This document shows, piece by piece, positions 54,117-55,084 of a stretch of DNA of 64,000 nucleotides (position 1 is its first letter; the number at the start of each line of letters is the position of its first letter). The stretch spans positions 35,585-99,584 of the forward strand of contig CAISGR010000318.1 of assembly GCA_903884945.1 (NCBI GenBank), given 5' to 3'. The DNA comes from an uncultured bacterium. Lineage in GTDB: Bacteria > Pseudomonadota > Alphaproteobacteria > Sphingomonadales > Sphingomonadaceae. The notes beneath the pieces were generated by a model that ran no database searches, had not been told where the DNA came from, and saw only the letters and a list, made by a program, of their open reading frames with translations. A program made the position numbers and the translations under genes.

Positions 54117-54145
54117 TGGACTGAAAACCCATTCATTAACCGTCC

Positions 54146-54171
54146 TTCCCCAGCGAAGGCTGGGGTCCAGT
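54146..54171 (+). repeat. REP-like hairpin, left arm
   Basis: TTCCCCAGCGAAGGCTGGGGTCCAGT, internal hairpin CCCCAGC-GAAG-GCTGGGG; inverted copy at 54509-54534 with one mismatch in 26. Confidence 0.85.
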
Positions 54172-54187
54172 TGGGGGACATTTCTTG

Positions 54188-54342
54188 GATGAGCAGTTCT
54201 GCGTTTACATCATGGCGACCTTGAATCGGCAAGGGTACGGGAATTTCGAATGAAAGCCTGGAAGCGGGCATGGAAGGTGCGCGAGATCGAAGGATTCAAT
54301 CCGGATTGGGGAGACCTTTACGACCGGATCGCGCAACCATGA
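54188..54342 (+). pseudogene. Internally deleted GIY-YIG nuclease remnant
   Basis: DEQFCVYIMATLNRQGYGNFE* (N-terminus-like) then, out of frame, MKAWKRAWKVREIEGFNPDWGDLYDRIAQP* (C-terminus-like); central catalytic part absent. Confidence 0.65.
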
Positions 54343-54384
54343 ACTTCTCCTTTTTCCTTTCTGCCTTCCTCAGCGAAGGAGCAT

Positions 54385-54438
54385 CGGGTCGGATCGTCCC
54401 CTGGACGATCCTTGAATGTGCGGGGCACATTCGACCCG
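54385..54438. repeat. Nested palindrome capable of forming a three-way junction
   Basis: Outer stem CGGGTC/GACCCG enclosing GGATCGTCC-CCT-GGACGATCC and GAATGTGC-GGG-GCACATTC. Confidence 0.85.
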
Positions 54439-54493
54439 TTGCTGGCCCGGTAACGACACGCCCGACGCATCGTCACGAAGGCCGGCGTAGATC

Positions 54494-55084
54494 ATGACCG
54501 ATATCCCGACTGGGCCCCAGCCTTCGCTGGGGAAGAAGGAGTGGAGGTTGGAACCTCACCCTGATTTCCCGAGCCATGCCATCCAGTCGATCTCGGTTGA
54601 TGTCGATCGGGAAGCGGGCGGTGGCCTGTTTCTGAACTATTGTGTGACCGGCGCGATCGAGGATGTACTTTGGCCGGATGGCGAGCCGCCCCAAACCTCC
54701 GGCCCCACCGATCGGCTATGGGAACATAGCTGCTTCGAGGCTTTTGTGGGGCGCCCCGACAAACCGGACTATATCGAGCTCAATGCCACGACATCGTTGC
54801 GATGGGCTCTCTACGCGTTCGAAGATTATCGCACGGGCATGACTGCCGTCGATACAGCCTTCAGCGTAATGGTGAGGTTCCGTACGGACAGTCTTGAAGT
54901 GCGCGTTTCAGCCCTGCCTCCCGACTGGTCGCGTGCGGGTGAACTGCTCCTCGGCCTCTCGGCCATCATCGAGGCGAAGGACGGCAGCAAATCCTATTGG
55001 GCGCTAGCCCATGCGCCGGGCCCGCCGGATTTTCACAACCGGGATTGCTTTACCGCGCGCCTCGCGGCACCCACCGGGCCATGA
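54494..55084 (+). CDS. DOMON-like domain protein
   Basis: WRLEPHPDFPSHAIQSISVDVDREAGGGLFLNYCVTG...DRLWEHSCFEAFVG; first codons lie inside the right repeat arm. Confidence 0.75.
   Translation: MTDIPTGPQPSLGKKEWRLEPHPDFPSHAIQSISVDVDREAGGGLFLNYCVTGAIEDVLWPDGEPPQTSGPTDRLWEHSCFEAFVGRPDKPDYIELNATTSLRWALYAFEDYRTGMTAVDTAFSVMVRFRTDSLEVRVSALPPDWSRAGELLLGLSAIIEAKDGSKSYWALAHAPGPPDFHNRDCFTARLAAPTGP
54509..54534 (-). repeat. REP-like hairpin, right arm (inverted)
   Basis: Reverse complement TTCCCCAGCGAAGGCTGGGGCCCAGT, 25/26 identical to the left arm. Confidence 0.85.

Follow-up and report, generated by a model that had tools for sequence, protein, structure and literature searches.

A decayed GIY-YIG gene between inverted REPs

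The window, i.e. the whole stretch of 64 kb of DNA analyzed here, originates from contig C318 (35585-99584) of a 6.48 Mb genome of the sphingomonad family and contains, at the rimO site, the remains of a small GIY-YIG nuclease gene bracketed by two inverted REP palindromes. The following features make up this locus, with L235 denoting the orthologous locus of a congener:

54146-54171, + strand: left REP TTCCCCAGCGAAGGCTGGGGTCCAGT with a 7-bp CCCCAGC/GCTGGGG stem, a GAAG loop and the tail TCCAGT, at the same place as L235 1804-1833
54185-54218, + strand: 5′ fragment of the GIY-YIG gene, (TTG)DEQFCVYIMAT (orthologue MDGQAYVYIMAS in L235), ending at the deletion junction at ~54210-54218
54210-54342, + strand: 3′ fragment of the GIY-YIG gene with the C-terminus MKAWKRAWKVREIEGFNPDWGDLYDRIAQP and the stop codon at 54340-54342; 80% DNA identity to L235 2011-2143
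54343-54497, no strand assigned: ~155 bp of extra sequence between the gene and the right REP, absent from the intact orthologue
54509-54534, - strand: right REP, inverted copy, reading TTCCCCAGCGAAGGCTGGGGCCCAGT on this strand
54494-55084, + strand: conserved downstream ORF without Pfam match, its N-terminus now encoded by the right REP (MTDIPTGPQPSLGKKEWRLEPHPD)

The initial annotation had described two 26-bp inverted copies with one mismatch, and these lie exactly at 54146-54171 (+) and 54509-54534 (-); the 20-mer core of the repeat occurs at these two places only within the 64 kb, with none expected from 100 shuffles. The peptides between the repeats had been read as the start and the end of a GIY-YIG protein that had lost its core. 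These remnants are real: The tail has tblastn matches among intact relatives (E 1.5e-9) and the fragments align to the intact orthologue at the same site, but the 5′ reading had to be amended to a frame starting at TTG 54185 (LDEQFCVYIMAT in the window vs. MDGQAYVYIMAS in L235), and the Pfam GIY-YIG model scores no bare fragment. Against the same model (PF01541), the intact orthologue reaches 52 bits. The diagnosis of a dead copy was right as well: The core YIG...R...H (~140 bp) is missing, and because of this loss the gene is shifted in frame. In front of the left REP, CGTC is found at 54141-54144, 2-3 nt out of register, so that the canonical tag is degenerate, and the right REP is without CGTC. 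No known RNA family was found in the locus. A part of the extra segment (54367-54445) is a further dispersed repeat, also present at other places in a number of congeners (G245, G093, G236 and others).

An intact orthologue and empty sites at rimO

A search of the genus with the window DNA yielded L235 (contig C55 of genome G221), in which a REP, an intact 96-codon GIY-YIG gene and an inverted REP lie between rimO and the conserved downstream ORF. Window 54144-54218 aligns with L235 1804-1880, and window 54210-54342 with L235 2011-2143; relative to L235, the window copy has thus lost ~140 bp of the core and gained ~155 bp before the right REP. Five further congeners (L222, L221, L226, L236, L238) have rimO immediately in front of the downstream ORF, which retains its native start there, e.g. 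MSDFHLVPHPD. This N-terminus at the empty site corresponds to MTDIPTGPQPSLGKKEWRLEPHPD in the window and to MTDTATGPRPSPGKEYRLVAHPD in G221: In both occupied genomes the right REP is translated as a new N-terminus (MTDIPTGPQPSLGKK... and MTDTATGPRPSPGKE..., respectively), and in G221 the new ORF start overlaps the stop codon of the nuclease gene. This REP-encoded N-terminus belongs to the footprint of the insertion.

Small GIY-YIG genes are flanked by inverted REPs across phyla

The association of gene and repeat was analyzed in two sets of loci. The family set comprised sixty 16-kb loci of the sphingomonad family holding 61 small GIY-YIG genes, the public-genome set 80 loci from several phyla (alpha-, beta- and gammaproteobacteria, Thermodesulfobacteriota, Myxococcota, Omnitrophota, Moraniibacteriota and others). 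The score was the best inverted match between the 250 bp upstream and the 250 bp downstream of a gene, with a threshold of at least 16, and neighbouring genes shorter than 1.5 kb served as controls. In the family, inverted REPs were observed to flank 55/61 GIY-YIG genes compared with 1/472 control genes and 3/1200 random positions (Fisher p 7e-67), and the same test across phyla gave 60/81 vs. 1/213 control genes. A lack of such enrichment would have refuted the initial annotation, which therefore passes this check in both sets. The intact homologue in the window's own genome (contig C88) is bracketed, too. Among 138 cassettes, the REP tags point outward in 94 vs. 20 cases upstream and in 90 vs. 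26 cases downstream. The gene is patchily distributed (136/201 genomes, 0-10 copies), and the copies within genome G141 are alike inside the REP-bounded unit while their contexts differ.

Spread by plasmids or phages was considered and ruled out as rare: The cassette nuclease is carried by 33/72,556 plasmid records and by none of 50,697 phage records. As to the extent of individual copies, in Shinella WSC3-e whole REP dimers bracket the cassette on both sides, giving a terminal inverted repeat of ~139 bp. At six loci of G141 and G073 (L073-L077, L082), further TGTCAGGACACGCCGACATTGCGGACGTTC-like sequence lies in inverted orientation on both sides outside the REPs, and comparable stretches border the pNL2 copy; the outer repeat near the G141 copies did not hold up as a component of the element in general.

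The cassette repeats are CGTC REPs and match the nuclease clade

The repeats of the cassettes consist of CGTC, an 8-bp stem, a 4-nt loop (GAAG, GAAA, GCAG and others) or a 5-nt CTTGA loop, and a CCA-like tail. They are thus CGTC REPs, of families 1 and 2 as defined by Di Nocera et al. 2013 (PMC3733652). The defining traits of this superfamily, namely an 8-bp stem, a 4- or 5-nt loop, an unpaired CGTC at one end and a short tail, are met by the cassette class overall; the window's own two REPs do not meet the requirement for the CGTC tag. Their close relatives have tag variants such as GTTCCCC and AGTACCCC, and the window REPs represent a sub-type with a degenerate tag that is common to the nuclease sub-clade resembled by the window copy. 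For the CGTC repeats no associated transposase genes have been found; they "apparently lack a dedicated transposase", and the missing enzyme was listed as an open question (PMC3733652). Neisseria dRS3 and Rickettsia RPE-4/RPE-6 also belong to this superfamily (Di Nocera, De Gregorio, Rocco 2013, PMC3733652). In a chromosome-sized record of Neisseria gonorrhoeae that is filed as a plasmid, a relative of the GIY-YIG gene lies between long inverted repeats with dRS3-type palindromes.

Mapped onto a tree of 142 nuclease sequences, the REP class (loop type plus the four inner stem bases) requires 22 changes, and none of 200 shuffles needed fewer than 52. Six genomes contain paralogues of different REP class, and when labels were shuffled within genomes, 22 changes were reached in 0/300 cases; consequently, a common genome background does not explain the observed match between REP class and nuclease clade. 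Intact enzymes with their REPs are found, for example, in Novosphingobium aromaticivorans DSM 12444 (SARO_RS19235, REPs of the CTTGA class) and in Azospirillum lipoferum 4B (AZOLI_RS22735, GAAG class).

The nuclease and its proposed mode of action

The intact nuclease is a stand-alone protein of 96 residues. Its structure model is confident (pLDDT 95.3), and the closest structures found by Foldseek, with modest E-values, are UPF0213 proteins and Slx1. The residues Y7, Y18, R28, H32, E65 and N84 are invariant in 31 diverse members across phyla and, by comparison with what is known of I-TevI, occupy the positions of the active-site residues of GIY-YIG enzymes. With PF01541 and the catalytic Y, Y, R, H, E and N, the cassette nuclease meets the criterion of the GIY-YIG superfamily; the window remnant itself is coreless and dead. 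Paralogues within genomes show dN/dS values of 0.07-0.25, by which measure they are under purifying selection.

We consider it probable that the window harbors a dead member of a widespread group of minimal mobile cassettes, each composed of an outward-tagged CGTC REP, a gene for a GIY-YIG protein of ~96 aa and an inverted REP, and that the nuclease is the dedicated partner of the CGTC REPs. The analysis demonstrates the architecture with its enrichment, the match of REP class and nuclease clade, the co-variation of REP number with the nuclease, gain/loss polymorphism and purifying selection; cleavage of the REP hairpin by the nuclease and a causal role of the enzyme in REP spread are inferred, as there is neither biochemistry nor an observed transposition. 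The suggestion of the initial annotation that a small GIY-YIG protein acts analogously to a REP mobilizer is supported by enrichment, polymorphism and the alignment to the orthologue, so that none of its three refuting conditions applies, but its enzymatic part remains an inference. Mechanistically, the enzyme would recognize its own class of REP hairpin at both ends, extruded or single-stranded during replication, and would nick or cut close to the base carrying the tag. Host repair would then copy the segment between the REPs, once released or broken, or join it elsewhere, and solo REPs and head-to-head REP dimers would be non-autonomous offspring. Since GIY-YIG enzymes hydrolyze DNA and strand transfer is impossible for them, movement would have to be of the cut-and-repair type, which is consistent with the absence of a target-site duplication of at least 3 nt (0/79 cassettes).

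Occupied and empty sites favor joint gain of REPs and gene

Empty/occupied polymorphism, the lack of which would likewise have spoken against the initial annotation, was observed at four loci: the rimO site, a site in G186, Sphingobium fnrL-fixJ and Azospirillum sufB-sufC. At the cassette site of G186, both flanks stand 9 bp apart in two congeners (G285 and G283). Azospirillum lipoferum 4B carries a cassette between sufB and sufC that A. ramasamyi, A. oryzae and B510 are without (flanks 95-96% identical), and Shinella sp. PSBB067 has an independent cassette of a different REP class, also at sufB-sufC. At fnrL-fixJ, the cassette is present in four Sphingobium strains and nothing is found in S. 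herbicidovorans; TYG64 and TYG74 have a single palindrome with CGTC tags at both ends, TYG65 another REP-like palindrome. In the relatives that are empty at the rimO, G186 and Azospirillum sites, REPs are absent altogether, which indicates that the gene and its repeats arrived jointly or shortly after one another.

These sites bear directly on the alternative of a homing-type selfish gene, whose nuclease would land in REPs or REP dimers that were already there, by cutting the palindrome and being copied in through recombination, without spreading the REPs itself. GIY-YIG enzymes are classic homing nucleases, and target specificity would equally produce the match between REP class and nuclease clade. 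The empty sites share no common target, and the one with a solo palindrome (fnrL-fixJ) leaves homing into REPs possible: The doubly tagged palindrome of TYG64 and TYG74 could be a pre-insertion target, but it can also have arisen by deletion between the direct-repeat arms of two REPs, and host slippage alone could produce such a collapsed palindrome. Doubly tagged palindromes are rare (3 distinct ones among ~370 hairpins), and homing would have to account for empty relatives at three sites that lack any REP as well as for a REP abundance that tracks the nuclease: The 136 genomes with the nuclease have a median of 9 pattern-matched CGTC REPs, the 65 genomes without it a median of 0 (p 5e-12). 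While the REP-free empty sites favor a self-spreading cassette, homing remains possible in view of the solo palindrome with its two tags; we regard it as unlikely, though not so much as to set it aside.

A fixed target motif outside the tag was not found, only a G-poor, pyrimidine-leaning outer flank. In the 79 cassettes tagged on both sides, the 10 nt outside CGTC are G-poor at both ends on the strand reading into the tag, and on the right side G occupies the -1 position outside the tag in 1%. The gap between sufB and sufC (L391, L396) is a hot spot for insertions, in which Sphingomonas parapaucimobilis carries a DUF559 gene (NZ_CP155753.1, annotation only). For one further locus (L111), the flanks were too rearranged within its genus for an occupied/empty comparison. 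Decay of the gene is seen in 6/61 small GIY-YIG genes in the form of internal stops; in Sphingobium TomTYG73, a 1-nt deletion in a nuclease gene that is intact in the sister strains marks recent decay.

REP load and Y1 transposases

A further reading takes the protein for a domesticated hairpin-processing nuclease that trims REP cruciforms or regulates itself via the flanking REPs, the REPs being spread by RAYT or an unknown enzyme and the proximity being selected. It draws on the Slx1-like, structure-specific neighbors of the fold, on the purifying selection and on genomes that keep REPs without the gene: In seven genomes with at least 4 CGTC REPs, one of which (G136) has 107, the small GIY-YIG gene is absent and UvrC is the sole GIY-YIG protein. 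REPs can thus at least persist without the nuclease; these genomes suggest persistence after loss and weaken any claim of necessity. Conversely, of the 56 genomes in which the pattern matched no REP, 17 have the nuclease; REPs of the CTTGA class escape this pattern. Against domestication stand the mobile-like traits of the gene, i.e. its patchiness, its non-homologous sites and its decay, which are unlike those of a housekeeping gene, and the scarcity of the presumed mobilizer: Y1 (RAYT-family) genes occur in 34/201 genomes only, have no significant link to REP count (p 0.08), and no CGTC REP lies within 1.5 kb of 30 Y1 genes of the family. Their absence and distance rule out RAYT as mobilizer of the CGTC REPs, and we find domestication improbable on the whole. 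That a common intergenic repeat merely chanced to flank an old nuclease gene, the simple alternative of the initial annotation, is excluded for practical purposes, for even though some genomes hold numerous CGTC REPs, control genes are so flanked in only 1/472 and 1/213 cases vs. 55/61 and 60/81.

Some Y1 genes of the family (L254-L256, L259, L261, L263, L271) have terminal inverted repeats of their own, often AATTACGGTGACAGTTTACT-like and unrelated to the REPs. Head-to-head REP dimers (L345-L374 of G106; L285, L306 and L310 of G186) have spacers of constant length (~30, 33 or 43-44 bp) but of a sequence that differs per dimer and is mostly no recognizable cassette remnant. There is only weak support for the dimers having arisen from the cassette by simple internal deletion: A similar inner end exists in L235, but the spacers are mostly unrelated.

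A second subfamily with a palindrome of its own

At 22/31 loci, members of a second stand-alone GIY-YIG subfamily (...LRCADGSYYVGHSDNL...GWSRTKKEELI...) lie between copies of a palindrome of unrelated sequence (CCGTTCGTCCTGAGCTTGTCGAAGGACG and variants). In L315-L344 and L001, this palindrome takes the form CCGTTCG/CCGCTCA...CCTGAGCTTGTCGAAGG; the copy in the window's own genome (L001, contig C35) ends at a contig edge. Matches to the second subfamily occur in 80/151 genomes, an upper bound because weaker matches to the first subfamily are counted in. A general principle of a nuclease with its own palindrome is therefore likely. The more far-reaching idea, to which we incline only slightly, is that an entire class of bacterial mobile DNA is driven by stand-alone GIY-YIG nucleases: Each subfamily would recognize a palindrome specific to it (CGTC-1, CGTC-2 or the unrelated CCGTTCG...CTTGTCGAAGG) and spread itself along with non-autonomous REPs by hydrolytic cutting and host repair, without a transposase. 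A large share of the REP-like palindromes in alphaproteobacteria and in several further phyla would thereby be explained.

Comparison with known systems

RAYT transposases are the partners of GTAG REPs. Like the REPtrons formed by these enzymes (TnpA-REP), the cassette has a single small nuclease gene between inverted REPs, genomic REP offspring and enzyme-specific REP types, so that the REPtron criterion of an enzyme gene between inverted REPs plus dispersed REP offspring is met in terms of architecture only. The gene between the REPs encodes a hydrolytic GIY-YIG enzyme instead of the Y1 HUH transposase required for a RAYT REPtron, and the repeats belong to the CGTC rather than the GTAG superfamily. 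The cassette thus combines a REPtron-like architecture with a non-homologous enzyme; in the open-access papers searched, we found none linking GIY-YIG to REP or CGTC repeats (subscription papers and preprints were outside the search). If the proposed role is true, a hydrolase replaces the transposase in a REPtron-like element, and with RAYT chemistry impossible, this would amount to a novel way for minimal DNA elements to move.

Free-standing GIY-YIG homing endonucleases, e.g. T4 Seg, are likewise stand-alone selfish genes copied to new sites; the cassette differs from them in its inverted palindromic bounds, its many unrelated sites and the lack of a DNA-binding domain beyond the 96-aa module. 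A classical insertion sequence is ruled out, as there is no transposase and no target-site duplication of at least 3 nt in the 79 cassettes. The cassette is thus not a RAYT REPtron, for want of a Y1 gene, not an insertion sequence and not shown to be a homing gene. UPF0213/COG2827-type GIY-YIG proteins (PDB 1zg2, 1ywl) are relatives of the cassette nuclease in sequence and fold; the records examined give no function for them, and a subset is now linked to palindromic repeats. If our reading holds, it would provide a function for the large, widely annotated and unexplained group of 'GIY-YIG nuclease family proteins'.

The CGTC REPs are one of two large REP superfamilies, and the enzyme for them was missing in the defining study of 2013 (PMC3733652). 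The CGTC tag, the 8-bp stem, the 4-nt (family 1) or 5-nt (family 2) loop, the CCA-like tails and the predominance of head-to-head pairs are common to them and the cassette repeats; the cassettes add a dedicated GIY-YIG gene where no enzyme had been found, and the tag of the window copy is degenerate. The cassette nuclease is the best candidate for the missing partner that spreads the CGTC REPs: a single, specific and testable enzyme, present in cultured, tractable bacteria.
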